Positions 1-64,000 of a stretch of DNA of 64,000 bases are shown here, one piece after another. The stretch covers positions 79,863 to 143,862 of the forward strand of contig JAMQCK010000041.1 of the NCBI GenBank assembly GCA_024196135.1, written 5' to 3'. The DNA is from Pleurotus ostreatus/Saccharomyces cerevisiae fusant. Taxonomy: Eukaryota > Opisthokonta. The stretch's first letter is position 1, and each line of letters opens with the position of its first letter. Made by a program: the position numbers and the translations under genes. Under the pieces are notes generated by a model. That model was not told the DNA's origin and made no database searches. It worked only from the letters and a program-made list of their open reading frames with translations.

Positions 1-125
1 TGCAGCCATTGCTTCGGCATGCGGACAATCGGGCTGTCGTCGCGGGTCGACGGGGTCGATGGGCGGCAGAGAAGAGGGGAAGAGCCGAGTGTAGATTCCA
101 TGCTACGGGGCGAGTCAGAAGCCAT
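1..125 (-). CDS. Partial gene at left edge, N-terminus only
   Basis: An open frame starts with ATG at 125 on the minus strand and runs off the window, giving 41 residues. They are rich in Ser, Pro and Thr (MASDSPRSMES at the start) and end in PIVRMPKQWL at the edge. No domain is visible. The start is the first ATG in the frame. The composition looks coding, but one cannot tell whether this is a whole first exon. It is divergent from nothing obvious on its right. Function unknown. Confidence 0.4.
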   Translation of the reverse strand, partial: MASDSPRSMESTLGSSPLLCRPSTPSTRDDSPIVRMPKQWL

Positions 126-827
126 CGACGACGCAGACGCTGGCGGCGCACCTGAAGGCCGTTGTCGTGATAGTCGTGGGGATGGGGGAGGTCGTGGACG
201 GTCCGGCCGTGGAAAATATGCGTGTGGATGGGGAGGAGACAGATGACACCGCGGTGGTGGGTAATGAAGAAGAAAGGATGCAGGGGCGGGTATATAACCT
301 AACCAGCACCCAGCCGACACATGTAAGCGGGCACGCACTGCGCGCGGCGTACACGATACCCCCGACACGTCGGTACGCAGCCCTATCGACTCGTGTATCC
401 AACCCGATGCTAACATGGTTCCCCCGAATCACAGGCGATCTATTGACGCTCCCCCGCGCTGGACCTCAAGCGATACGTGCAACGCTCATCCAACACGTGC
501 AGAACAGGCGTGAGCCTCGTGCAGTACGCCGCTCCGCCATCTCATCTCAACGTTGTTTGGAAGAGAGCCTTCTCGTCCATTTAGATGCGTGTTCATGTCC
601 CTGTTTTGCCCTCACGATAGTCGCTTCTAGGGGTATCGTTGTCGCCCGCGGCCGAGAGGCCAATGTTCGTTTACAGTACAGCAACATCCGAATCCATAAC
701 TTAGGCAATCGCGCTCAACGCGAAGCACCTCTACTACTGGCGTGTACGTAGTAGATATCGATATCAGTGTCCTTCCGGGTTCCACCCCTCCCAACCCAGC
801 GCACAATGCACATCCGCGAATCCACAT
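126..827. other. Intergenic stretch, no supported gene
   Basis: A 194-codon plus-strand frame crosses 167-751, but its composition is erratic and it has no recognisable motif or intron pattern, so I do not call it. A TATATAA-like run lies near 290. Nothing else was recognised. Confidence 0.5.
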
Positions 828-1493
828 CTACTGGCGCGTCCCCGCGGGCGCCGGGATCCCCGTAACGTGCTCATCGATGCTCCTGCACAACTTGCTGACG
901 ATGAACTCGAGGCCCTCCACATACGTCTCCCGCTCCCGCAACCTCGCCTCCGCGGCATCTGCCCGCGCCTCCGCTTTCCGCACGCGCTCCTCCGCATCCG
1001 CGGTCCGCGCTTTCTCCTCCCGCACAGCGCGCTCGGCGGCCTCCGCGCGCGTCTCAGCTGCAGCGGCTTGCGCCTGCACGGCGTGCATCGAGGCGAGCGC
1101 CTCGTCCTCCGCGTCGTGCAGGTGCTGCGCGAGGAGCTGCGCCGCATCCTGCGCGTCCTGGAGCTGCTGCTCGAGCAGCCGCGCGGCCGCGTGCTCGTGC
1201 TCCGGGCTCACCGCGCTGTACACGGGCGGCGGGATGTCGATGGACATCGACCGCGAGCGCTGCGGCTCGATCTCGAGCTCGAAGCGCTGCTTGGAGTCCG
1301 GGCTCGGGTGTGACGGCTTTAGGTTCTCTGTGGACGGCCCGCCGCGGGGGAAGTCGGCGCCGCTGCCCATGATGTCGTGCAGGCTCATGGCGAGGGTCGC
1401 CTTCGTGTCGGCTGCGACATCGGCCAGCGATGGACGATCCTGAGTAGGCGACATGTGCGTGGGCGAGTGCGGGTCGGTCGTAAGGTGAGGCAT
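828..1493 (-). CDS. Coiled-coil protein, 221 aa
   Basis: This is a single-exon frame from ATG 1493 to TAG at 828. The first 90 residues are Pro/Ser-rich and probably disordered (PSLADVAADTKATLAMSLHD, then SMSIDIPPPVYSAVSP). Residues of about 97-205 form one long Ala/Glu/Arg heptad coiled coil, with runs such as AAAETRAEAAERAVREEKAR. The short tail contains YVEGLEFIVSKLCRSIDEHV. There is no signal peptide or membrane segment. Long coiled coils of this kind are usually structural or adaptor proteins, but no family can be named. It lies in tandem downstream of ADE2 on the same strand, about 350 bp away. The reverse-strand frames here are shadows of its Ala/Arg-rich codons. Confidence 0.7.
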   Translation of the reverse strand: MPHLTTDPHSPTHMSPTQDRPSLADVAADTKATLAMSLHDIMGSGADFPRGGPSTENLKPSHPSPDSKQRFELEIEPQRSRSMSIDIPPPVYSAVSPEHEHAAARLLEQQLQDAQDAAQLLAQHLHDAEDEALASMHAVQAQAAAAETRAEAAERAVREEKARTADAEERVRKAEARADAAEARLRERETYVEGLEFIVSKLCRSIDEHVTGIPAPAGTRQ

Positions 1494-1840
1494 GGCGCGC
1501 AGCGCGGTCGTGAATCAAGTGGTTGGTGGTGGTGATGGTGGTGGTGGTAGGTACGAAGGAAGAAGGAGAGGTCCTCGCTTGGGATGCATGAGTGCAGCAA
1601 GGGGTGGCGGTGCTTACCATCATGCTCCATGCCTCGTTCAACAAGCGTGTTCTTCATGAAGGGACGAGGGCCTTGAGGTTGGCGACCCTGATTCCGCCGG
1701 GAATGCGCGTCTAATACGTTATCGCATAAGTAACGATACAGTACAGTCTGGTGATACAACAACAGTTTGTCTATACAAAGTGCGACCTGCAGTGGTCAGT
1801 GTTGCAGATCGCTTCGTCTTCCGTTTTCTTCGCGGGGCCT

Positions 1841-3726
1841 CTATTTCTTCACCACGTAGTGCTCGTAGCCCTCGCCCTCGAGCTTGTCGGCCTTCTCCAG
1901 AACCTGCTGCTCCAAGCCGCGGGCGAAGGCTTCGGTGTCCGTGATGAGGTGCGGGATTGCAACGCCCAATATGCGGACCGCCAACAAGCCCGCGTTCTGC
2001 CCATTGTTTATCGCCACAGTAGCGACAGGAATACCGCGCTAACATCTCATGAGCAACTTTGTCCAATATTGTGTGCGACAGTACTCACCGGCATCTGCAC
2101 AATACTATGCAGCGAGTCCACACCGTCGAGCGTGCTCCCCTTCACCGGCACGCCGATTACGGGCAGCGGCGTCATGCTCGCCAGCATCCCCGGCAGGTGC
2201 GCCGCGCCACCCGCGCCCGCGATGATCACCTTCAACCCCCTAGCCGCCGCGCTCCTGGCGTACTGCACAAGCCTATCCGGCGTCCGGTGCGCGCTGACGA
2301 TCGTCACCTCGTGCGGCACGCCAAATTGCGCCAACGCCCGGGCTGCAGGAAGCATGACTGGCAGGTCCGAGTCCGAGCCCATTACGACGCCGACGAGGGG
2401 CGCGGGGTGCGGTGCGTCTGCTGCGCGGGGGAGGGGCGCATACGTCTCCGCGTCCTTGTCACCATCGCCACCGGGCAGGGCGAGCAGCAGCGGACGAAGT
2501 CGTTCACGCAGCTCAGCGTCGCTGCCCGCGACTAGCGTGACGTGGCCCATCTTACGGCCCTTGCGGCAACCGGACTTGCCGTAGAGGTGTACGGAGACGC
2601 CTGGTACTCCGAGTGCGGCCTGAGCCGCCTTCTGTATCTCTCCTACGTCGTCCGACGCGCCTATGTAGTTCAGCATGCCCGCGGCGGGAACGACGAGCTC
2701 GGTACTACCCAAGGGTAGGTCTAGGATGGCACGCAGATGGTTCTCGTATTGCGACGTCGCGCAGGCCTCGATAGTGTAGTGACCCGAGTTGTGTGGCCGA
2801 GGTGCGATCTCGTTCACGTACAGCGTCCCGTCCTCGAGCAAAAACATCTCCACGCCAAACACTCCTGCGCCGCTAAGCGTACGCACAGCGTTCTCTGCGA
2901 TCGTCTGCGCGCGCGCGGCGAGCGTCGGGTCCGTGCTGCGCAGGGGGGCGAAGACGAGGTGGCAGATGTTGTGCTTGTGGATCGTCTCGACCGCGGGGTA
3001 TGCGCGTACCTCGCCGGACGCGGCGCGCACAACCATGACGGCGATCTCCTTCGTAAAGGGCACCCAGCGCTCGGCGTACAGAGCGCGGCCTCCGAGCGCG
3101 GCAAGAGCGTCGGGGACTTCATCGAGGGAGCGGAGAGCGTAGTTGCCGCGGCCGTCGTAGGCTTGGGTGCGGCTTTTCAGCATGAGGGGGAGGCCGAGGG
3201 TCTTGACTGCGGCTTGTACGCCGGCCTCGGATGCGTCGACGGAGATGTATTCGCCGAGCGGGGTGTCGTGCGCGCGCAGGTGCTCCTTCTGGCGGTACTT
3301 GTCCTGGATGAGGCGGATCGTGGAAGGAGAGGGGTGGATCACGACGGACGAGTTCGTCGTCTGCGCTGCTTCGAGTGCGTCTGCGTCGACGTGCTCGATC
3401 TCGACAGTTAGAACGTCGACCTTGGCAGCAAGTTCCTTGATCTTCGCGGAGTCGGCGAATGATCCATCGACGTGGGCGTGCTGCTCATTCGCTGGGTTGA
3501 CGATCTGCTTCGCGGGACTGTGGCCACTGTCAAGGAAGACGAGGGGGATGTTTAGCCGCGCCGCCGCCTCCGCGAGCATACGCCCGAGCTGACCACCGCC
3601 TGAACAACGTCGGTAAAGTCACTGAAAGTAGAGAAAAGACCTGTAAAGTCAACTATTGGTGAATGAACAAGCAAGGGGACAAGACCACGCACTCGTACCG
3701 AGAACACCAACGACCTTGTCCGCCAT
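1841..3726 (-). CDS. ADE2: Phosphoribosylaminoimidazole carboxylase, PurK-PurE fusion
   Basis: This enzyme makes CAIR from AIR in de novo purine synthesis in the cytosol. Exons on the minus strand are 3699-3726, 2089-3599 and 1841-2038, giving 1737 nt and 578 residues, the usual length for fungal ADE2. The first exon is only 28 nt ([10 protein letters not shown]). Splicing completes the ATP-grasp opening motif [12 protein letters not shown]. Residues of about 1-390 are the PurK-type ATP-grasp half ([49 protein letters not shown]). From about residue 411 the PurE half begins with [13 protein letters not shown], followed by [21 protein letters not shown] and [20 protein letters not shown]. The final intron (2039-2088) sits inside [21 protein letters not shown]. 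It shares an 82-bp intergenic region with RSA3. Confidence in function is very high; the start and both introns are forced by the conserved motifs. Confidence 0.97.
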
Positions 3727-3808
3727 CGGAGGATACAGTGATGAGGGCAGGAGGGAAGAAGGGAATGTCGGGAGGAACACCGATCGATAGGTTTTTCTTC
3801 CCGCTCTC
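3727..3808. promoter_or_regulatory. Short bidirectional promoter between ADE2 and RSA3
   Basis: Only 82 bp separate the two start codons, which point away from each other. The strip is purine-rich (AGGAGGGAAGAAGGG near 3750) with a pyrimidine run, TTTTTCTTCCC, beside the RSA3 start. No TATA box is visible. Both 5' leaders and both core promoters must overlap here, which suggests that purine synthesis and ribosome assembly are co-expressed. That last step is inference. Confidence 0.6.
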
Positions 3809-4455
3809 ATGGCCCCTTCCGCCGCCGCCCCCCGCAAGCGCATTCGCAAGAGAAAGCGCAGAGTCGCTTCGGACTCTTCTTCTTCGTCGTCCTCCTCGGA
3901 CTCCGAGTCTGATTCGGGCGTGGTCGTCCAGCCAGCGGCGGCCATCGCAGCAGCGAAGGCGAAGACAACCGCACGATCGTCCGAGTCCTCAGACTCCTCG
4001 GAAGATTCATCGTCCTCCTCAGACTCAGAGTCGGACTCTGACTCCAGCGACCCTGCGGATGACGCGCCTACACAAGCCGCGCCTGGAGTACCTCGACCCG
4101 CAGCCTCTGCCTCTCGCCGATCACCTTCCCCGCCGCTCCCCTCCACCGAGATACCATCCTTCCTCCCAGACAAGTCCGCTCCCAACGCTCAGGAGAAGGA
4201 ACAGGAGCTGCGAGACAAGTTCCGCAAATTCTGGATGTCCGCGGTCGTGGATGGGTTCAAGGACGATTTGGAGGAAATCCGCAAGGTGCGTCGCATGAAC
4301 CAGATCCTTGTACTTCAATGCTGACACGCACTCAGGAGCCCAACCTTACAACGCCGAAGCTGAGCTTGTTGATTGACTCGCTTGCATCGGGCGCGGACGT
4401 TTTCGCGATGTCCGGGAAGGGGGACGTCGGCGAGATGGCTATGGTGGTCGACTGA
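3809..4455 (+). CDS. RSA3: Ribosome assembly protein 3 homologue, 198 aa
   Basis: Exons are 3809-4285 and 4336-4455 (597 nt) with a 50-nt intron. The first 20 residues are basic (RKRIRKRKRR), a likely nuclear or nucleolar signal. They are followed by two acidic Ser/Asp/Glu tracts (about residues 21-90) typical of nucleolar proteins. The conserved C-terminal domain reads FRKFWMSAVVDGFKDDLEEI, then across the splice junction RKEPNLTTPKLSLLIDSLAS and GADVF. This is the Rsa3 domain (established family), which acts in early 60S subunit assembly. The minus-strand frame of similar length here is a shadow of the Ser-rich region. The function call rests on the C-terminal motif. Confidence 0.88.
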
Positions 4456-4936
4456 TCGTCCCACCTCCATTGTAGTTTGCGCAACTCAGACATCAGCCAC
4501 TGTTGCCGTCGCTCGGGGCCTCGCTGTCAGAGAACGCCGAGAGAAGATCGTGCAGGCCATAATCGACCACCAGGACGTAGTTTCAGACGAGGATCTTCGC
4601 TGCATTCATCGCACGGACGCCCGTCATGGGTCGCTGTATACTCACTGCCGAAACCACGCAGAAGTTCGTTGCATCAGTCTGCTATACCCATTACTGTAGC
4701 CTTGTTCTGCAATGCGAGCGAATGTTGCGCGAATCCTACTACGCAGCGATTCGAGGTTCCCCGACTGGACCCTCCCTTTGGCTCGAGAACTATACCCGGA
4801 ATGGTCGTAATTGCCTGCCCCATATTCTTTGGAACGGTATGTTCACTTCGCGCAGCGTCAACATCGCATTTATGGGTTTGTTCCAGCAAAGGCTACGCGG
4901 GATGATGATGGCGTTTTAAACCGTTCCACCGTCAAC
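4456..4936. other. RSA3 downstream region, no supported gene
   Basis: Short overlapping frames in both directions show no domain, splice pattern or composition that would support a gene. It probably holds the RSA3 3' UTR and the tRNA upstream region. Confidence 0.5.
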
Positions 4937-5007
4937 TCGGATATGGTGTAACGGCTAACATTGCCGCCTCTCACGCGGCAGCTCGGGGTTCGATTCCCCG
5001 TATCCGA
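4937..5007 (+). tRNA. tRNA-Glu (anticodon CTC)
   Basis: The acceptor arms TCGGATA and TATCCGA pair fully. The anticodon stem GCCGC/GCGGC encloses the seven-base loop CTCTCAC, placing CTC in the anticodon position. An A-box-like TGGTGTAACGG and a B box GGTTCGATTCC are both present, and the T stem CGGGG/CCCCG pairs. There is no intron. A run of T follows as terminator. All identity elements were read directly. Confidence 0.95.
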
Positions 5008-5012
5008 ATACC

Positions 5013-5017
5013 TTTTT
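5013..5017 (+). terminator. RNA polymerase III T-run terminator
   Basis: Five T residues begin six bases after the tRNA-Glu 3' end and are followed by GTTTTTTG. This is the normal Pol III termination signal. Confidence 0.85.
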
Positions 5018-5249
5018 GTTTTTTGTGCAACATTGGCAGGCGAGAGCTCTGTGCCAAGTATACGGAGCCACAGCGGCAGATGTCGTTGAGCCAGAGAAGA
5101 ACCTGCCCATCGTGAGCTTGATCGTGAGCACCAATGCTTCCTAGACTCTACATTCCAACAGTGAAATTCCAATTTAGCATTCGATTTCCTGCTGAATATC
5201 TACGACTGCCACCTATTCTCCGCCCGAACGACCACCTGGGCGGAAACTA

Positions 5250-6518
5250 TTACCACCCCCTCTTCTCGAAGTCCTCGAGCGTATCCTTTGTTGACTGCTC
5301 GATGGTCATGAAAGTGAAGCCGAGGTCCTTTGTGACGGTCGTCGTGTCGTAGTTGACGTTGATCTTGTCCGGCTTGGGCGTGTTGACGGCGCCCTTCGCA
5401 AGCTTGAGGTGGTTGGGCAGCCCATTTGGTTTGACCTTGTTAGCGGCGTCGACTGGGAAGAGACATGGTAAGTAGATAACTCGACGGCGGGTAAGCTTCT
5501 ACTCACTGAAGTCTTGCCAGGTGAAGGGCCCCGCGGATGCGATGACACGCTTCTCGGAAGCGGCCTCCTTCGACAGCGCGAGCTCGTGGACCTGCCCAAG
5601 ATCGCGTACGTCGACCCAGCAGCTCGCCTGCGTCGTCAGCGCCTGCTCACTCTTGCCGCCAGCGTCCTCCTCCACGACCGTCTTGTACCAGTCGAGCGCG
5701 GACGTGTTCAGCGCCGCCGCCTTATCGACCTCATGAATCGCAGGCCCGAAGACGAACGGCGGGTTGATGGTGACGAGGTCCCACTGGATCTTGCCCTTGT
5801 TCGCGTTGTACAGCTTCCAGGCGGCCTTCTCCGCGAGCGTCTTCGACGCGCGGTACTTCGCCGCCGCGGACGCGCCCTTGCCGAGCTTCTCCACTTCGTC
5901 GATGGACTGCTGGTTCCAGTCCTTGTCGGTGAAGACGACTGGGCCGGAGCGCGACTCTAGGATGGCGGCGACGGAGCTGGTGACGACGACGCGCTTGACG
6001 GAGTGGCTGCGGAGGGCGCTGATCAGGTGAGTGCGCCGCAGAGAGGGGAGGGGGCGACGCACCCGTTCTTCAGAATGCTGTTGAGGATGCTGCGCGTGCC
6101 GTTCACGGCGGGGCCGATAAGCTCTGGCGAGACGATCAAGCACGCTTCGACGGTCGACGATCCTGCGACGCACCTTGGGGATCGTCCGCCCTGAAGTGGA
6201 ACGGCGAGGCCGTGTGCTCGACCGCGTCAACGCCCTTGACCGCTTCATCGAATGCGCCCTCCTGATGATCGCCAATCAGCGCGCTACCCTCGCCCTAAGC
6301 GCCCGCTTACGCACCTTCGTGATATCGTCGACGATCGCGAGCTCGAACTTGTCGCCGTACGATCGGAAGTAGTTGCTCAGGTAGGCGCCCTTCGCGGACG
6401 AGCGCACCGTCCCGCGCACGCTGTAACCCTTCTCGAGAAGCGTGCGCACCACCCACATCGCGATGTACCCATTCGCGCCGGAGACGAGGACCTTGGCGGG
6501 TGCAGTGACGGCGGGCAT
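5250..6518 (-). CDS. NADPH-dependent reductase, DFR/Gre2-like (paralogue A), 355 aa
   Basis: Exons on the minus strand are 6315-6518, 6174-6261, 6063-6123, 5507-6018 and 5250-5452, totalling 1068 nt. The N-terminal Rossmann signature is [20 protein letters not shown] at about residues 10-29. The extended-SDR catalytic pair is in [15 protein letters not shown] (Tyr and Lys near 172 and 176), followed by the substrate-site signature [15 protein letters not shown]. Such proteins reduce ketones or aldehydes, as in dihydroflavonol reductase and yeast Gre2 methylglyoxal reductase. The real substrate here is unknown. A paralogue lies at 27553-28994 with the same four core introns. There is no signal peptide, so it is probably cytosolic. 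A TATA box stands 84 bp upstream of the ATG. The exon joins are supported by family motifs and by frame. Confidence 0.92.
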
Positions 6519-6601
6519 GGTGTTCTGCGGCTATTGATATGTGGTGGAAGGTGAGTTGTGTGCGATACGAGTTCCTGGGACGCCATCGCGCCTTCAGGGG
6601 C

Positions 6602-6608
6602 TTATATA
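6602..6608 (-). promoter_or_regulatory. TATA box of reductase A
   Basis: On the minus strand the sequence reads GGTATATAAGC, 84 bp before the start codon of the reductase at 6518, a suitable spacing for a basal promoter with a short leader. Confidence 0.55.
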
Positions 6609-6619
6609 CCCTGACGCGC

Positions 6620-8860
6620 TCGCCGTATATGGTAGGCATTGTCATCGGAGCTTACAGGACATAGGAGTTTGTGATGATGCGCAGGAACCTCCGTCCGTCC
6701 GTCGCCCTCGAGACGGGCTTGCCGGAGACGGCGCACTCGGCATAGCGGACGGCCAGTGACTGGTCTTCGCCCCGAGCGCGGCAGGCATCCGCTCGTCGAC
6801 CTCATCGGATGCAGAGACTCCCCTCGGAGTGCTACGTATGCGGTTCCCGATTCGGAGTCTCTGTCTGTGGGAAGCTGCGACTTCCATCGGAGAGATACCT
6901 GATAAAGATGGATACAGGGATGAATAACGGACTTTGGTTGATAAGTCGTGAAACCTACTAGAACAGTGAAGAAACCGTGCAAATGGAAGTCGTACTTCGT
7001 ATTCTAGGCCGTGCAAGCGATTATTGGGTAGGGGCACGATAGTCATCCTGGCCTCGAGTGACTTTCGATAGAAATGGGTTCTAGGTCCTGTCAACCTTGC
7101 GTGAAAGCTCGAAGGATGTAGTACGTCCAAGTTGAAGTAAGTAGGTCCATGAGGGTCCTTGTCACATGATACAGGGATGGACACTGCCGATTCGGGTAGT
7201 CCGCCTCCTGCTTCTTACCCTCGTCACCTCATATCCTTGTCGCGTAAAGATTACGCTGGCTGTCTCAATGGGCTCCGACGCGCCGACAGGAGATGTCTGT
7301 GGCCGGGCAGCTTCCACCTGGATGCCCAAGAGTTGATCTACGAGCACGAAGTCATTGCCGATAAGCGCGCGATCGATAGACGTACTGGAAGACCTTGTCT
7401 CGCCAATGCGTGCAGGATTGCGAAGATACTCCTCTGTCTGATTGCTTGAGCAACACGATAAGGTCGACGATACCGTTTATTGACCGAGGGATACATGTTC
7501 AAGTGCGTATTATTGATACCGGAGCAAGTTCGATCGTCTCTTGGCAGAGCTCAGCGATGCGATTTCATGGCGGTCAGAAGATCTTGTACAACATGCGATG
7601 TTGCTCTATGGGAGTATTCGGGGCGCTGAAGGGTGCGTCGAAGACTCGCAAAACCTCGTCGTCTTGGGCACCACGCCATACGGCTCCTCGTCACAGCGGG
7701 CCAGCCCCTACCATTGCCTCGCAGAATCGCGCTGCAACTGCAGTCACCCTTTATGGCCATTGAATCGATTCGGAACCAACAGGGAGGTTGCTCGGTACGC
7801 CATCCTCGCCAAGGACCAAACCCTTTCTCGGCCTTTCGAGGTTCCGTCCCATTCGTGTAGAGCCCGTGCTCTCCAGTTTGTATGCTGTGCTTTTTATCCT
7901 ACGAAATGCTATTCATCTTGTCATCTCCTTTGCGCGCGCCCCTCAAACTGCACCTTGACAGAGTTCATACCCCGACCAACGCAAGCGTGGCGCACAAGCA
8001 TGACTTCCTCTGGCTGCTTTCCACCTTGGTGCTTGTGAGCTATCTAGCGGGGACTCTGCTTTAGCACGTCGTCGGGTTCCTGCGCACAGCTCAGCAGATC
8101 TATTAGAACGTTCCTCTTCTTTCAGAAAGTGCGTCGCTTTGCTTCTACTTCCTCTTCCTGGCTGACTCCTGGAGGCAGACCTTCGTCATAGACCATACGC
8201 ACGAACCCATCGGTGGTTGAGCTGGATCACGCAGGCCGAAATACCTACATACATCGCCGCTTCAGATGAGTTCTGCAACTAGGGCTGATAGTCACGTGCA
8301 GGCACCAACGTACCGTCACGACCGTGACAATGTCCGGGTTCCCTTCCAGCTGTCGCTTGCGTTCAGGCCGACCTCGACGTCGTGCTCAATCCCAGACGAC
8401 CACACTGCTCCTTTGATCCCGGATCTTCCTGTCATGTATGGGAAGCCCGCGGCTGTATATAAGGTCAGGATGACAACCAAGGCGACCTTCCGAGGTGAAT
8501 GCCTCGCGGTCCTTCGTGAGGTTCGTTGTGTCGCGCAGTTAGGGATAACGCTGGTGAGGCGCTTCTTCATCCTCGATGCAGCTCTCCGCTTAACGATCTG
8601 CAGTGTACTGCTTTTGACAAAGACGACAATGACGCCCCTCCGGCCGTGCTCAAGAAAACCACCTCAGAGGGATGCGTATTTGATACCGGCTTGCATTACG
8701 CGCCAAATGTATAGCTGAATTCATACCTCAAGTCCGAAGTGACGCATCGTCTCTTTGTGCCGACTAGGTTTTTCAAGACTTCGTACGGTCCTCGCCCTCT
8801 GCCGCTCCCGCTTCTGGACGTCCTCCGCGCGCCTAGCTTTCTGGTGATCTGACTAATCGC
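6620..8860. other. Gene-poor stretch, nothing supported
   Basis: Many short frames overlap on both strands (largest 165-180 codons, around 6640-7184 and 7541-8038), but none shows a domain, a consistent intron series or an isoform-like composition. Likely decayed or non-coding DNA. Confidence 0.5.
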
Positions 8861-42800: not shown

Positions 42801-43270
42801 CACCCACACCTACGGCGTCCGCAGCTCCCTCGTCGCTACCGGCAAAACCAGGAGCCACCTCAGCGTCTGCAAACACCCCTGCTGCTACGACTACTCCTGC
42901 TGCGTCGGCCTCAGCCGCCGCTGGTCCGTCTAACGGCGCTGCGAAGCCTGCGGAGGGTGCTGCGGCTCGCGGACGAGGCGCGGCGCGCGGTGCCCGAGGT
43001 GCTCGTGGTACTGCTGCGCGCGGACGGGGTGCGGCCCCTGCCACTCGTTCGGTCAACAACGCGCTTGCTGCCGCGACCGGGAACGCTAGCGGCGGCGGCG
43101 GCGTGTCCATCATGGGCGCTGCTGCTGCTGCTAAACGCCAGCGGGACGAGACCGGCGGAGATGGCTCGCTCGCGAAGCGGATAAAGACCGATGGCGGGGA
43201 CGGGCAGCCCGCCGCAAAAACTGGGGCGCCTGTGCAGATTCGCCGGCCACCACCAGGACCCTCGTCGTAG
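36816..43270 (+). CDS. MLP1: Nuclear pore basket protein, TPR/Mlp1 homologue, 1933 aa
   Basis: Fourteen exons: 36816-37368, 37419-37522, 37572-38345, 38395-39295, 39345-39720, 39774-40100, 40148-40307, 40359-40807, 40866-41454, 41502-41672, 41724-41927, 41977-42168, 42219-42266 and 42317-43270 (5802 nt). The size matches yeast Mlp1 (about 1875 aa). Residues of about 80-1700 are continuous heptad coiled coil. The TPR-family signature NHLVLFNSVPALQAQNRRLL with LVRQLG is near residue 605. The tail from about 1775 is Ala/Thr/Pro-rich, then an RG-rich segment (ARGRGAARGARGARGTAARG), and ends with a basic AAAAKRQRDE and LAKRIKTDGG, a probable nuclear signal. Mlp/TPR proteins form the nuclear basket and act in mRNA quality control and the spindle checkpoint. 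Every intron is 47-58 nt long. Dense antisense open frames here are shadows. Confidence 0.93.
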
Positions 43271-43553
43271 TGTGATCGCATGTTGACTTTGCTTTTGGTA
43301 TCTCACACGGACCCGTCGTGCATTGTATTGTAGTATCTTGTACTCGTATTATTCCCTATTGACTAACGTCGCATCGCATTGCTTGAACCAAGAGACATCC
43401 ATAAAGAAGAGTGGCCACGACCATTAAATACGGGACGTCTATAATACCACAGCGTGAAGATCGAAAGTGTGCGTAAAGGTGGGCGTTGAACATTAGATAC
43501 TTGAGTATGTGCGGTGCTCAAGCCAGTCGAGCAGTATGTGCGTCGCTCGACCG

Positions 43554-57227: not shown

Positions 57228-57250
57228 CATCGGGAAAAACCCAGATTGTA
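57228..57250 (+). repeat. Left terminal inverted repeat of the Plavaka element
   Basis: Pairs with 63978-64000 at 21 of 23 positions. It lies 157 bp beyond the stop codon of the transposase, the expected place for a transposon end. Confidence 0.8.
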
Positions 57251-57407
57251 ATTTGAGCCACCACGTACCACGGTGCCGGTAAATTGCTGAGTTTTCTGGT
57301 GCGGACGTGGTTGATAATGGTAAAGTCTGGTAAAGTGAGGGAAACATCATACTCCAGAACCACAATAAGCGAAGATGCGGGTCCTTGAACCAAAATATAC
57401 CAGTAAA

Positions 57408-60400
57408 CTAGTATAAAATACGATACAAATGTTTATCAGTGAACGAGTTGACGAAGAATGTCTTACAGTGGTCCAGTACATTACTGCTTGTCCATTCGGG
57501 CGGTGCAACTCTGCCGAACTTCGGAAATAGATGGACGGATCGTCGCAACTGGGAAATGGGGACGATACTGGCCAGATGTCCGCCCCCGACAGCATCGTTC
57601 GTCGATACCTTGTACATACGGTGATCTCGTTCTGGTCTCCGCGAGAATGGCGTATACCACTCGACGTAAGCAAGATGGCGTGGGACAACAACCCCCGGGT
57701 TGAATGCGTAGCGTACAGCGACCTTGCTGAGCGAGAAGATAGCGCGTACACGACCCACTCGATGGCCTACAAACCAGGATCAGCATGTTATTGAGCATGT
57801 GCCCATTGGAGAGAGCGTACCTTGTACTCCCGTATCCATTGCTAGTCCGTCATTTAGATCAAACAAGCCGGTGTCGAACCGGGCAGGGATCTGACGGCCT
57901 TGCTTATCGCGTCGCGCGGGATGAACATGCACGGAGTCGACCGTTGTCTTCACATCGGTCCATGGATCACGGCGAGTGTATTTGACGCGATGTCGGACAG
58001 CGACCTTGTCGAAAGGGAGGTAGACATGCTCTGCAATGTCCTCCACTTGGCGAGCAGTATTGAGGGAAGGGTTATTCTTGATCGTGATGTATCGCGAGAG
58101 TGCAGGTCGGATGAACTGCGCGCCATAGTCGCGCTCCAGCTCCGTAAGCGTGGCGCTCCTTGTCGGGTGCTTTGCAAGCTCCTGCATTCGGTCGAGCTCC
58201 AGACCGGGAGGTGACCACCGAGCGCTGCTCGCCAGTGCAGGCGAGCCCGCAAGACGCCATCGCACGTACTGCCCGAAGCGAGCAACCCTCTCGCGTCGTT
58301 CGAGCCAGGTCGTCATTTGCGGAAGCTCGTTTTTGCGGTTCGTCGCAGCATAGGCTCGCTTGGCGTAGTCTATGTGCAGGCGCTCCGTGTACTGCGTGTT
58401 GTAGTTGTCTGTCGTGCCGAATAATTTGATCTGCGTCACGTAGTGGGAGGCGAAGTGAAGCTTCGGAAGATTGAAGTGCTCGCGAATGCCTAGCTCAACG
58501 AAAACATTCTTGTTCTCGTGGAAGCTCCCGAGTGCGTCGTTGACGAGCACTAGGGATTCGCTGGAGTGTACAGGAAATTGAGTGAGATATACGAAGTCGA
58601 GAATACCACGAACAGCGGCCACGATGCGCGGTCCCGCACGAGGTACCGCTACACCGTCGGGAAGATGGACAGGCGCACCGATAATAAGTCCGAGGAGCTC
58701 GGAGCATATCTCGTCGTGGGTTTGGCCGGTGACGTGAGTGAGCGAAGAGATACCGGACATGAAGATACGGATGTTATGGTTTGGGGGAAGGCGCCGACAG
58801 CGCGCATCGAGTTCTGCCGCGCCATATGCGTCGACTAGCCACGCAAGGAGATGTTTGACGACTCCTTGGTAGAGCTGATGAAGTACGTCGGGTGTGATTG
58901 ACCTATGAGGGTGCGCGAACGGCAAATCGCTCCAAAATGGCTCGCGGACAGGCCGGACACGGCTGGATTTGCAGCGCGCATACCACCCATCCTGATCTGC
59001 GGAGTTCAGCACCTCCATGACCTTGTCGAGCTCGCGTAGTGCGTTCTTGTTTCCATCCGCAACATCACGGTCAAAGACTCCGAGCTCGTTGTGAGTTGCG
59101 CCACAGAGCGAGCAGTCGCCATTGATCGTGCACGTCACGAGGACCTGTTCCGGATAGTCGCAGACGTCGCAGGCGAAGATTGGGTGACAGCTGCGAACTT
59201 TACCGTCCGCGGTGGCCATCCTCTCGCCGTAGACACCAGGGCCTTTGAGAGGTGCTGTTATACGCTTGAGACACGAGTGGAACAAGTTGGCGAGGCATCG
59301 ACGACGTGATGCAAGCGTCGGGATGTGCTTGAGGCCCGACGTGGGCAGGTAGGCAAGGAGGACGTATGCGCGCGATGATGGTTTCCGACGAATCTCCTTG
59401 GGTATATTGCCAATGGTCATGTACAAGGGGTAAGCACTTTTATTGCGAAACAGAGTCAATTGCGTTTTGTCGCTCGAGAAGATTATCGGAATGATCGTGG
59501 CGCCCTTACACTCAGGCCGAGCTTCAACACGCTTCTAGAAGGTCATCAGGATTAGGCCCTCAAAGTAAAGAAGTGACGGACCTGCGTATCCCACCACCAC
59601 TTTCCCGTGTTCATGTCGTGATAGAGACGCTGCTGTCGTGTTTCGTCCATGTAGTGTCGTTCCGGACAAAACATGAGCACCGGGCAGAAGTCAACGTCAC
59701 CGAGAAGGGCACGGACACAGGCCAGGATGTCGCGGTAGTATACGTCGAAGATCTGGCCAGCAACACTGACCTCATGGCGCTCGAATGGAGGACGCCCGGG
59801 GAGGTGTTTGTCGATGAGCTTGTCAAGCTCAGCCGTGTTCCGGAACGGCAAATCAAGAGCTTCGACAACCTGCGGGTGGATGTTAGGGCAATATAAGGAA
59901 AAAGACTGATTACTGACCCCATCAATCTGCATCAACTCGGTAAATGCGGTCGAGCTAGGACCGCGCACCTTCGCCCATTGGGCAACCTCCCATGCCAGAC
60001 GATGTCCGAAAACACCATATATGTTGTCGAAGGAGTCACCGAGCTTCTTCGCATAATCGTCATGCGAGGAGTCCACCTCGTCATCGTAGACTCGACCGGC
60101 ACCAGCGTAGCGCTCGACTACAGGGGGACGTCGCAAGCCATCCTCTGCTTGATCACGATCTGGATCTGCGCCAAAGTCATCGTCGCCATCAGAGTTCCCT
60201 TCATCGGGAGAGCCCATCTCAACATCCACGTCGTCAGAGTCGGAGTCCCAACTTTCGTCGTAGCCCATGAAGTCGCGCTCAGGCTCGGCGCCACCCTCTA
60301 GTTCTGCATTGTATGCATCAATCTCATCCTCGAGCTCGACGTCGGCCTCGAGCTCGAAGTCGGGGTCGAGCTCGGAGTCGTTGTCAAACACTCTGTCTCC

Positions 60401-60709
60401 CGATGCTTGAGGTTGAGCGTCCAGATCATCATCATATAAGCCCGGAAACTCGTCCATAGTGTAATTATCGTCATAGTCCCCAAAGAGGTCACCAGCAGGA
60501 TCGACGGGTATGCGCCTCTCGTTGGAAGGATCGGCGGGATCGGGTACGATGGGGGCATCCTGCATCACGCCAGCGGTATGCTCGATCTGCGGGGCAATCG
60601 GAGCGGGTACCACGGGCAGTGATCCATGCGCCTTGCGCTTGTGGATGTTGAGACCTCGCGCGCCCTTGCATGGCTTGCGACAGTCTCCAACATCGCATGT
60701 GACGATCAT
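57408..60709 (-). CDS. Plavaka-type transposase, intact, 1066 aa
   Basis: Exons on the minus strand are 59582-60709, 57821-59534 and 57408-57766 (3201 nt). The N-terminus has a C2H2-like finger (CDVGDCRKPCKGARGLNIHK with RKAH) and then a highly acidic region of about residues 60-200. The conserved core runs FCPVLMFCPERHYMDET, MNTGKWWWDTQ, (junction) IFSSDKTQLTLFRNKSAYPL, YMTIGNIPKEIRRKP, SITPDVLHQLYQGVVKHLLA and GTTDNYNTQYTERLHIDYAK. The end reads HLAYVEWYTPFSRRPE and SVHLFPKFG, then PPEWTSSNVLDHCKTFFVN. These are the hallmarks I know for the Agaricomycete Plavaka family, a group related to CACTA/EnSpm transposases with an RNase H-type fold. No stop or frameshift was found, so it may be active. 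The first intron has an unusual GTCCGT donor, but the junction is fixed by the motif. An extra 5' intron may end just before the ATG. Confidence 0.93.
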
Positions 60710-61302
60710 GCTGCAAGGGCTGGTTCAAACGAGTGCTTACGGTATAGAGCTGAGTTCTCACCTTCGTGTATGGGGCTGAGACCGCTCGCGTCTTCTGCAG
60801 GCGAGCGTAGTTGAGGGGAACTGAGTACACGTTCAGGGCAATATGGAGAGATTTGCGGAAGCGAAATCGTGCTGTGGCACGTGTGAGTATGATCTGTTTC
60901 CCTGGCTTCGACTCCAAGCTGCGCACCTAGCCGAAGCTGCAGGCTCTATACGTGGTGGTAACGTAGCGGCTTAGGGAATCCTTACACGCCCCCAAGATGA
61001 TACGGCTGTTTGAGGAGTTTGGCAGAGCGGGGAGAGGTCGGGAGACTGATACTGATGATGTGGAGTAACGGAGCGAGCGCGGCGAGGAGCCCGAGATGTA
61101 AGCGAGAGCGAGGCAAACGAAAGGTGATGGGGGAAGGAAAGAAGCCAACACGCCCCCTTCGGCCCGTAGCCCGTGGACCGGCAGCTGCCGTGCGCATAGA
61201 CCATTAAATAAGACACGTCAACGGCTTGGTCTAACCACGACGCCCATCTCGACGTCGACAACTAGATCCTCTACGACCCATCTAATTCACGACAACACCG
61301 CC
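60710..61302. promoter_or_regulatory. Shared upstream region of transposase and DUF6532-like gene
   Basis: The two start codons point away from each other, 593 bp apart, inside the element. On the minus strand an intron-like end (CCTTGCAG) lies directly before the transposase ATG. A run of CAT/CAC-rich sequence precedes the plus-strand gene. No TATA box was certain; TTAAATAA lies at 61203. Confidence 0.45.
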
Positions 61303-63596
61303 ATGTCCGCGACAAACGACTTTACTCTTACACCGGCGCAGAAGCGCCAGCGAACAATGGCGCTCAACCGGCAGCAAGCCCAGAGCGCTGGCAGCGCAGC
61401 ACCTTCGCGCGTTCGGAACGCGTCGCGCGCTATCTCGAATGCTGAGAACGAAGGCCATGGTGCGTAGCCTGCTTGGGGACTCGTACCTCCCTGCTGATCG
61501 GTCTACAGTGGCCCGAAATAATGCGCGTCCTTCAGCGGCACCAAATGGTTCATCGGCCAGGAAGCGGCCAGCGCCCGCTCCTGCGCAAGGTGCACCCGCT
61601 CCGCCGCCTAAACGTGGCCGTCCCCCTGCTGCTGAAGGTGCGCTCTCATATCTGACGTGGCTGAACACATGTTGATCGTATTGCAGCACGCCGAAGTCGA
61701 GCCCCAAACATCGGAGGGCAGTCCACACGAGCTGTGCCGCCTCGTCGCTCTCAACCCGCTCGCTCTGCCAACCCCTCGCGTGCGCCGGCATCGACAGGTC
61801 CGCCGTCTGCATCAACGCGTCGCGGGCTCGGTGGCTCGCAGGCGCGCCCGCAGCTATCCCACCCTCGGACGCAGACTGTTCAACCCCAGCAACCCTCGAC
61901 AGCGCCGACAGCTGACATCAACGTCAATGATAGTGATGGTGACGACGAGCTGATTGAGCGACCTCCGCGGCTGCGTCGTCCCCACCCTGCTGTTGTTGAC
62001 GATGAGGGACACGAAGATGAAGAGGGCGATGCGATGCATTACGAGGACTCAGCCATGGATGCGACGATGGAAGAGGAGCCTGAGGAGGACTCGCCAGTTG
62101 ATGAAGGCGACCCCATTGCCGAGGTGCGTTATCACTATCATGTACTATCATCTAAGCTGAAGTCTCGCAGGCTGCGATGTTCATTGATGATGGATTGGCG
62201 CAAGAGGACGAGGGACGCATGCCGCAGCCGCCCCCCTCGGCCGCGCAACTCTTTGACAGCGACGTGCATCCTGTCCAGGAGGTGAGTCCTTCATCGGGTG
62301 ATTTGGCACGTCTAAACGCGAGCAGGAAGCTTGTCGCCGATCGAGCAAGGCCTCTCAGCGACGTCGGGATGAGGTACGCAGCGCAGCAGCTTTCATAATG
62401 CGCATGCGACTGACCCATTGCAGATGCCGCAGTGGACCCCTGAGGTCATCGAAGTCAACGACGAGAACGACGCGGACACTGGCGAAGGCGCTCATGGGCC
62501 GTCACCTGTGGCTTGGCCTGGGTACAGCAACATTCGCAACGCACGCCACGGACGCGACCTTCCCGTCACTCAGCAGTCCCCCGAGATGCGTCTTCTGATA
62601 GACACGGCTGTCGACATCGCTTCCTACAACGCTCTCTTCGTCGATGCTATCCAGGAGCATCAAGATGGCTGCGATACGGACCACTACCTCCACAATGTCC
62701 TTGTCGAAGCTGCTGGCCTATTCACGGACACCCACCCCGCCTTTCTCCAACGTATGACGCAGGAGGTGGACTACACAGATCCCCTTCGACGTGTGGTATG
62801 TTTTTTGTTTGTTTGCTCACTGAGATGTACTGACGTGCTTGCTAGGTGATGCAACGGATCTCGACGCTGCGAAGCACATTCAAGAACCTCGCTGCCAAGT
62901 CTGTCGACTCTTGGTACAACTTGCCAACGCAGGACGCTGTGGAATGCACAGCGAAGGTGGAGACTTTACTGCACCAATCGGCCTTCAAGTTCCCTGAGGT
63001 GAGTCGTATGACTACACTGCGTCGCTGCGTGTTTTGACGGCAACAGGTGCCAGCTGGGTCCCCCGATGGTTCTCGACCGTACCAGCACCGGGCCATCATC
63101 AAGCTACTCTCGAGCATCGTCTTCTCGTCCAGCTCACAAAGCTATGTTAGCAAGTATCACCAGTATTTCCGTAGCTCGATTGAAAGCCTCCCGGACGAGC
63201 CCGAGTTACCGATCCCCACGGTGGCGCTCACTGCAACTGCGGTATGCCACTTCGCGAGCTTGTTCCCCTTGCACTCTGACCGTCATACCAGATCAACATC
63301 GCGCTGCGAGAGTACAACTCGACGTCCGGCCGCTACAACATCGTGTTCAACTATGAGGTCTACAAGCATTACTACAACGTCTACGTCCAGGACCTCGAGG
63401 GCTTCAAGCGCACGCAGCCCACGAAGTTCCACCGTGCGATGGCGAACCTTTACCACGAAGCTAGGTATGTTGTTGTCTGCTGTTCTCCCCGAACTCGTCA
63501 TTGATGAGCATTTGTAGCGGACGGTCAGGCGTAATAGGACCTATCACGGTCGAGTCGGAGACGGCGTTGTACAACGTTGCTGCTATGCCGGAGTAG
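61303..63596 (+). CDS. DUF6532-like protein carried in the Plavaka element, 617 aa
   Basis: Ten exons: 61303-61459, 61509-61637, 61687-62123, 62171-62281, 62326-62373, 62424-62795, 62846-62998, 63047-63241, 63292-63464 and 63518-63596 (1854 nt, no stop inside). Residues 1-340 are Pro/Arg/Ser-rich, with an early basic helix (TPAQKRQRTMALNRQQAQ) and an acidic run (DDEGHEDEEGDAMHYED). The C-terminal domain of about residues 345-600 reads RLLIDTAVDIASYNALFVDA, FLQRMTQEVDYTDPLRRVVM, HRAIIKLLSSIVFSSSSQSY, TAINIALREYNSTSGRYNIV and YHEASGRSGVIG. This is how I remember the Agaricomycete DUF6532 family, of unknown function. The spliced form with small exon 5 is required, because reading through shifts the frame. 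Its presence inside the element suggests a second transposon protein or cargo. Confidence 0.85.
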
Positions 63597-63977
63597 GTAT
63601 CCTACAGCTTTTCATGCTTTCTAGATAATAGACGACGGTTGATGATAGAATGACCCCTACGATTACTTAGACTATAGAGCATTTGATAGACTGTAGAGGC
63701 TTTCGTAGCACATGTGTTCCTTGAATACATCCCACATTCCTTTCCTACTTGTTTGCTGTGATGATTGCCTGAACCTCAATTATCCAAGTGACCAAAGATG
63801 CACCATTGATGGTATACGAGGGTGCGTTGGGTTAAAATGGTCCGAGCTGGTTAATTCTGGTGAGGACAAAGTCGGCATGGCTCGCAATATGTTCATACTG
63901 GTTCATTCGTCGCACAATGGTGCAGTGTGGTACAGACTGGTTTAATCGTGGACATTCGTGCTAAAAGCGGTACGACG
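63597..63977. other. Subterminal region of the Plavaka element
   Basis: No gene. Several imperfect repeats of CTGGTT(T/C)A(A/T)T occur between 63840 and 63960, as expected for transposase binding sites near a CACTA-like end. Confidence 0.5.
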
Positions 63978-64000
63978 TACAGTCTGGGGTTTTCCCGATG
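63978..64000 (-). repeat. Right terminal inverted repeat of the Plavaka element
   Basis: The minus-strand reading matches 57228-57250 at 21 of 23 positions. It is cut by the window end, so it may be longer. Confidence 0.78.

Follow-up and report, generated by a model that had tools for sequence, protein, structure and literature searches.

Plavaka transposons, a name reportedly given by Iyer et al. in 2014, and several two-protein transposons are the closest described systems to the element analyzed here. It occupies the last 6.8 kb of a 64,000-nucleotide stretch of DNA (contig JAMQCK010000041.1 of assembly GCA_024196135.1, positions 79,863 to 143,862; the window in the following) and carries, besides a Plavaka transposase gene, a gene of the Pfam family DUF6532 (PF20149). 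According to the accessible part of the published description, Plavaka and its relatives encode a DDE transposase with C(2)C and H(3-4)H motifs between the second D and the E, and their target site duplications (TSDs) measure 2 or 3 bp (PMC12730594). Its subjects are the transposase and, for two species, a TET/JBP gene; a DUF6532 partner is not mentioned. In the En/Spm system, as covered by the available sections of PMC2613891, TNPD and TNPA are both required, and TNPA binds the subterminal repeats and also regulates the element. TNPA-type partners share little similarity, while the transposases are conserved, and the binding proteins of CACTA elements are likewise reported to evolve faster than the transposase (same sections of PMC2613891). 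DUF6532 and PF20149 are named in a Ganoderma domain list that also names Plavaka (accessible part of PMC8955403). Beyond this list, neither name was found in the literature searched, where DUF6532 is not given as a Plavaka gene; this literature did not include supplements, in which an earlier mention is possible.

The window element shares with Plavaka (PF18759; PlavakaB of PMC12730594, as far as accessible) the transposase family with its DDE, C(2)C and H(3-4)H residues, CATC...GATG ends, and 2-bp duplications in its relatives. Its own termini read CATCG..CGATG and thus differ from the 5'-CATCA..TGATG-3' published for PlavakaB. With CACTA/En-Spm (TNPD plus TNPA) it has in common two proteins, a conserved transposase and a fast-diverging partner, as well as, in most elements, putative subterminal repeats that differ between families. 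In contrast, CACTA elements have CACTA ends, a 3-bp TSD and alternative splicing, whereas here the ends are CATCG, the TSD of the relatives is 2 bp and two separate divergent genes are present; no similarity between DUF6532 and TNPA was found in a Pfam scan. VANDAL21 of Arabidopsis also encodes a second protein, VANC, and shows repeated short motifs that differ between related elements, both the binding of such motifs by DUF6532 and a demethylating action being hypothetical. The transposase of VANDAL21 belongs to a superfamily unrelated to that of Plavaka. Nuwa/Harbinger elements combine a transposase with a Myb/SANT DNA-binding protein and thus match the window element in having two components, of which the second is a separate protein presumed to bind DNA. 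They represent another superfamily with a 3-bp TSD, however, and DUF6532 gave no Myb/SANT match.

Our results point to DUF6532 as a working part of the Plavaka transposon and not a stray passenger. We read the window element as an apparently intact, recently mobile two-component Plavaka, in which DUF6532 is most likely a TNPA-like partner that recognizes the ends, and on balance we lean slightly towards this reading.

The element is delimited by two terminal inverted repeats (TIRs), the 23-nt arms of which match at 21 positions (91% complementary; Table 1). About 0.002 such pairs are expected by chance per 10 kb if equal base frequencies are assumed. The exact 18-bp terminal core occurs at four sites in the genome, all of them ends of the window family: both ends on C625, the contig that ends with the window, the left end on C737 and the right end on C409. 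Allowing one mismatch added two further sites, and a reversed-pattern control gave none. All comparisons between elements were made within this one fragmented 40-Mb assembly. C737 contains the first 822 bp of the element with one difference, and C409 contains element positions 70-6773 with one difference in 6704 bp, followed by its own right flank. At least two near-identical copies of the window element exist, which indicates recent movement. Because the left flank of C737 is unrelated to that of C625 yet joins the element at the same base, the left boundary is fixed. The left flanks end in ...GGTA on C625 and in ...CC on C737, and the right flank on C409 begins with TAAT. The window copy would therefore be flanked by a TA duplication if C409 continues C625. 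However, C409 starts directly behind the variant that distinguishes C737 from C625, and at position 6559 it departs from C625. It could therefore be part of the C737 copy, in which case the flanks would not agree. No second match in the genome was obtained for any of the family's three flanks, and no pre-insertion allele was seen.

Both genes of the element are transcribed away from a common intergenic region, which is probably their shared promoter region. The two large open reading frames of the transposase gene match PF18759 with E=1e-59 and 2.8e-23. Residues D382, D486, E744, C501/C504 and H720/H724 are invariant in all eight transposases aligned (the partial transposases of C97 and C1209 were left out). 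Following the published Plavaka signature, we read D382/D486/E744 as the putative DDE triad; the C(2)C and H(3-4)H motifs of this signature are present between D486 and E744 as C501/C504 and H720/H724. The DUF6532 gene has GT-AG introns of 44-53 bp, and its protein matches PF20149 with 113.6 bits, above the Pfam gathering cut-off of 24 bits. The hand-spliced protein is identical in 616 of 617 residues to EV122DRAFT_275880 of Schizophyllum commune, which places the genome in this species or very near to it. Its N-terminal KRGRPP is presumably an AT-hook-like core, and the DUF6532 domain is predicted, with low confidence, to be all-helical. In all ten partner proteins profiled, the first 50 residues are basic and followed by a net acidic stretch, most weakly so in C360. 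Of these ten, nine are S. commune proteins from the database and one is the partner of C360; P0003, P0012, P0013 and P0015, which are shorter models, and others were left out. The initial annotation had described the 23-bp repeat with 21 matches, the roughly 6.77 kb enclosed and the head-to-head arrangement of two genes, all of which are borne out; further copies of the 6.8-kb unit, sought in this genome, are those on C737 and C409. It had also given both genes as stop-free over 1066 and 617 codons. The second figure is exact, while the first consists of 1050 amino acids and the 16 codons of a 48-bp intron that stays in frame.

Across the genome, DUF6532 genes were found only next to Plavaka transposases. 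Pfam profiles gave 10 PF20149 matches on 9 contigs and 44 PF18759 matches on 25 contigs, and on each of the nine DUF6532 contigs a Plavaka transposase adjoins head-to-head, so that the proposed tie between the spread of DUF6532 and Plavaka finds support in this genome. Eight of them have strong Plavaka matches (C1156, C726, C1167, C979, C618, C409, C625 and C97), with a divergent gene pair in every case. The ninth, C367, was rejected as a case of DUF6532 without a transposase, since the N-terminal part of a transposase lies head-to-head at 43048-43446 and the contig ends at 43669. As strong we defined a best PF18759 match above 130 bits, which is reached on 11 contigs, the next contig having 68 bits. 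A DUF6532 partner is present on 10 of these 11, and the remaining one, C1209, is cut by the contig end inside the transposase. C568 was likewise rejected as a Plavaka without DUF6532: its partner was found beyond an HSP70 fragment and, once spliced, matches DUF6532 with 42.2 bits. The C360 partner reaches 22.7 bits, just below the cut-off, and this is its only Pfam match. C409 and C625 hold copies of the same family, which leaves nine distinct elements with the partner, plus C367. Neither Pfam nor the protein queries P0005 and P0014, which represent DUF6532 subfamilies, revealed a stand-alone DUF6532 gene in the 40 Mb, and the C360-type partner as query matched only C360.

Six relatives are complete, with both ends on one contig. 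Their ends were picked by repeat similarity or terminal motif (for C568 also by similarity to the C97 end), the flanks not being the criterion. In all six of these diverged elements the repeats enclose both genes, as in the window. The DUF6532 gene thus lies inside the transposon, as had been suggested, and the opposite case, repeats that bracket only the transposase, was not found in this genome. Five of the six are flanked by 2-bp duplications (TC, AG, CA, TA, CA), whereas at odds of 1/16 each the chance of at least five dinucleotide matches in six is 5e-6. CATCA stands at both ends of C1167, C618, C568 and C360; C726 has one CATCA and one CATCG, and C979 has CATCG at both. In spliced alignments, their transposases are free of stops and frameshifts and share 71% (C979), 60% (C1167), 59% (C618), 59% (C726), 39% (C568) and 30% (C360) identity with that of the window. 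The partner gene models of C568, C360, C97 and C367 were made by hand.

The two proteins have diverged together. For nine elements, the pairwise identities of the transposases and of the DUF6532 domains are correlated with a Mantel r of 0.91, a value reached by 4 of 20,000 label shuffles; for the six closer elements alone, r is 0.94 (reached by 12 of 720 permutations). Both trees group the window with C979, C726 with C618 and C1156, and C97 with C568, and in the transposase tree these groupings have high support. C367 was included in the DUF6532 tree only and C1209 in the transposase tree only. DUF6532 diverges faster: compared with its five nearest relatives, the window shows 26-34% identity in DUF6532 versus 56-71% in the transposase. 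Judging from the ratios of nonsynonymous to synonymous differences (pN/pS), which are 0.29-0.69 for DUF6532 (four pairs) and 0.24-0.34 for the transposase (three pairs) and are rough because synonymous sites are near saturation, both are under purifying selection.

Short motifs are repeated inside the ends of most elements. The interior of the window element contains 1.75 TGGT per 300 bp, versus 10 in each end. TGGTTNA occurs five times in both window ends together (0.2 expected) and four times in those of the sister C979 (0.0 expected), and it is absent from the other eight sets of ends examined. TAAGCC is found six times in the ends of C1167 (0.2 expected), GATTGG six times in those of C618 (0.3), CTTGAG 12 times in those of C568 (0.3) and five times in the single end of its sister C97 (0.2), and AAGGAC 12 times in those of C360 (0.5). 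By these counts, the putative end motifs are clade-specific in most but not all elements, strong in C568 and C360 and weaker in the window, C979, C1167 and C618.

Taken together, these observations suggest the following model. The DDE transposase would cut and join the DNA, and DUF6532 would be its standing, element-encoded partner. As a DNA-binding protein comparable to TNPA of maize En/Spm, it would recognize the short motifs repeated inside both ends and help to bring the ends together for the transposase, and/or it might regulate the divergent promoter of the element itself. We favor the end-binding role because the motifs, where present, adjoin the repeats and because the partner is found on every testable strong-Plavaka contig. 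We infer that DUF6532 binds DNA, that the subterminal motifs are its target and that it is needed for transposition.

A number of results weigh against this model. AlphaFold models of DUF6532 are poor (mean pLDDT 34.5 and 47.0) and a fold search of the PDB gave no match at E<=0.001; therefore, no fold is claimed. The Pfam scan provided no link to TNPA, which itself was not directly compared, or to any DNA-binding family, PF20149 being the sole family under E=0.1. Moreover, 14 of the 25 PF18759 contigs have weak matches only (best <=68 bits), and none of them is among the Pfam DUF6532 contigs. A hidden Markov model (HMM) built from the partners detected no DUF6532 on five of these 14 (C836, C875, C1022, C407 and C326; best E=4) in about 2.4-4.5 kb upstream of the match, with the window as the only positive control and the other nine contigs not fetched. 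Since the weak-match contigs showed no DUF6532, the pairing is a property of one Plavaka branch and not of everything that PF18759 detects, as far as this genome shows. As to the elements themselves, C979 has no TSD, the right end of C1156 was not found, and C625 stops at base 64000, the last base of the repeat, leaving the right flank and TSD of the window copy unread. In the spliced alignments, one of seven DUF6532 genes (C726) needs a frameshift and one of nine transposases (C1209) has a stop; the DUF6532 alignments of C97 and C367 cover the N-terminal part only. The grouping of the window with C979 is supported at only 0.44 in the DUF6532 tree. AAGGAC occurs only twice in the single end of C1209, the sister of C360 (0.4 expected), and neither C726 nor the one end of C1156 shows a clear motif array. 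In addition, the motifs were chosen after the ends had been seen; only CTTGAG on C97 was fixed beforehand, from its sister, with the C97 end already viewed. We also counted the commonest k-mer blindly and compared the ends with 300 random interior pairs. With 5- and 6-mers, only C568 and C360 are clear (for the 6-mer, none of the 300 pairs reaches their counts), C1167 is borderline (6-mer, 0.017), and the window, C726, C618 and C979 are not significant. The window passes only with its commonest 4-mer (0.013).

DUF6532 could instead be an element-encoded anti-silencing or transcription factor, VANC-like or comparable to the fungal TET/JBP proteins, that binds the repeats of its own element for expression and stays outside the cutting complex. 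VANC is likewise transposon-encoded, with targets that often are tandem repeats varying considerably between related elements (accessible part of PMC5735166), and TET/JBP genes, presumed to act against methylation, are present in some of the Plavaka families in other fungi (accessible part of PMC12730594). The divergent gene pair, sharing one intergenic region, would suit such a factor as well. However, the arrays, where seen, lie beside the terminal inverted repeats, the place at which a synapsis factor would be expected to act. The partner is found on all 10 strong-Plavaka contigs that could be tested, while TET/JBP genes are published for some Plavaka families only. We regard a role purely as such a factor as rather unlikely, although it is the main rival; it does not exclude end binding, since in Spm TNPA serves transposition as well as regulation (available sections of PMC2613891). 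Some other mechanism, for example a target-site selector, a transposase-stabilizing protein or a self-limiting regulator, appears improbable. Nothing in the sequence speaks against it, the domain being predicted, with low confidence, to be all-helical. End recognition, however, is in better agreement with subterminal repeats that are clade-specific and with the basic N-terminus.

We consider it very improbable that DUF6532 is a passenger of no use to the element, either cargo or a host gene picked up in a single capture. Captured-looking host DNA does occur in a Plavaka element of this genome, namely the HSP70 fragment inside the ends of C568. But this fragment is present in one element, whereas all seven complete elements, counting the window, have DUF6532, always in the same orientation, diverging together with the transposase and under purifying selection, and both the Pfam and subfamily searches lacked a stand-alone copy. 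Chance neighborhood or an assembly artefact with a coincidental inverted repeat, which the contig end exactly at the repeat might suggest, is hardly credible: it is already refuted by two unrelated left flanks that join the element at the same base and by six other complete elements with the same layout.

A wider reading is that DUF6532 is no host family but a dedicated end-binding, possibly anti-silencing, Plavaka subunit. It would have co-evolved with the transposase and with the end motifs of each clade from a time before the DUF6532-bearing lineages of this genome first split. Many annotated DUF6532 host genes would thus be transposon genes or domesticated ones; we consider this wider proposition evenly balanced. 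The pairing gives a Pfam family of unknown function a testable role, suggests that at least one large Plavaka branch is a two-component system, and bears on how mushroom gene families are annotated and how a minimal Plavaka system that works could be built. Owing to the clade-specific end motifs, the predicted binding can be tested directly.

Table 1. Features of the window element and its complete relatives (window positions unless a contig is given)
Feature	Position	Strand	Details	Basis
Complete two-gene Plavaka element	57228..64000	.	6773 bp	TIR pair and near-identical copies on C737 and C409
Left terminal inverted repeat	57228..57250	+	begins CATCGGGAAAA	
Left subterminal region	57228..57527	.	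TGGT x10 in 300 bp	
Plavaka transposase gene	57408..60709	-	1050 amino acids; 4 exons: 60709-59918, 59869-59582, 59534-57821, 57766-57408	spliced model, PF18759
Intergenic region between divergent start codons	60710..61302	.		both gene models
DUF6532 gene	61303..63596	+	10 exons, 617 amino acids; basic N-terminus with KRGRPP, acidic belt, C-terminal DUF6532 domain	
PF20149 DUF6532 domain	62748..63405	+	residues 403-572	113.6 bits, E=1.4e-32; coordinates converted from exon table
Right subterminal region	63701..64000	.	TGGT x10 in 300 bp	
Right terminal inverted repeat	63978..64000	-	ends TTTTCCCGATG	last base is contig end
Complete element	C726 11362-20906			both ends on one contig
Complete element	C979 7211-14178			both ends on one contig
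Complete element	C1167 207386-214570			both ends on one contig
Complete element	C618 2076-9755			both ends on one contig
Complete element	C568 12139-21937			both ends on one contig
Complete element	C360 25489-31787			both ends on one contig

Three protein database searches listed only S. commune proteins (2, 11 and 8). These searches need shared exact words, and the last two scored only about 8,000 candidates sharing most words; the absence of other species means little. Viral contigs were also scanned, and no relative was detected among them. We discount a profile match (6.3e-5) to a Brix-domain chain, as it covers profile positions 46-216, which we read as the low-complexity charged part. 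A further DUF6532 relic near 54.8 kb of the window, suggested by a 28-bp repeat, was not supported by tblastn or HMM search.

Three of the weak-match contigs, C836, C875 and C1022 (L036-L038), share 28-30% identity with the window transposase. Together with other weak PF18759 places, they form a distantly related second lineage of Plavaka-like elements within this genome, which might, as a guess, be the PlavakaA of the literature. C407 looks like a decayed fragment of the C360 type. The HSP70 fragment of C568 (PF00012, E=1.1e-56) lies between the transposase and the DUF6532 partner at C568:15762-16571 on the minus strand (L028:7762-8571) and is probably host DNA captured by this element. The C726 element measures 9545 bp and is longer than most relatives (6.3-7.7 kb; C568 9.8 kb).

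Two isolated ends were also observed. At C960:13814-13831 (minus strand), a lone end resembles the left repeat of the window (CATCAGGAAAATCCCAGATTGTAAAATGA), and neither a transposase nor a DUF6532 match was found in its 3018-bp locus (L043, around 1518); we read it as a candidate relic or non-autonomous copy. At C358:133917-133934 (minus strand), the terminal core occurs with one mismatch, and neither gene was matched in its locus. Finally, P0002 (EV121DRAFT_274713), a homologous gene in another S. commune record, is located on a contig of 6759 bp, which is close to the element length of 6773 bp, as a collapsed repeat contig would be.

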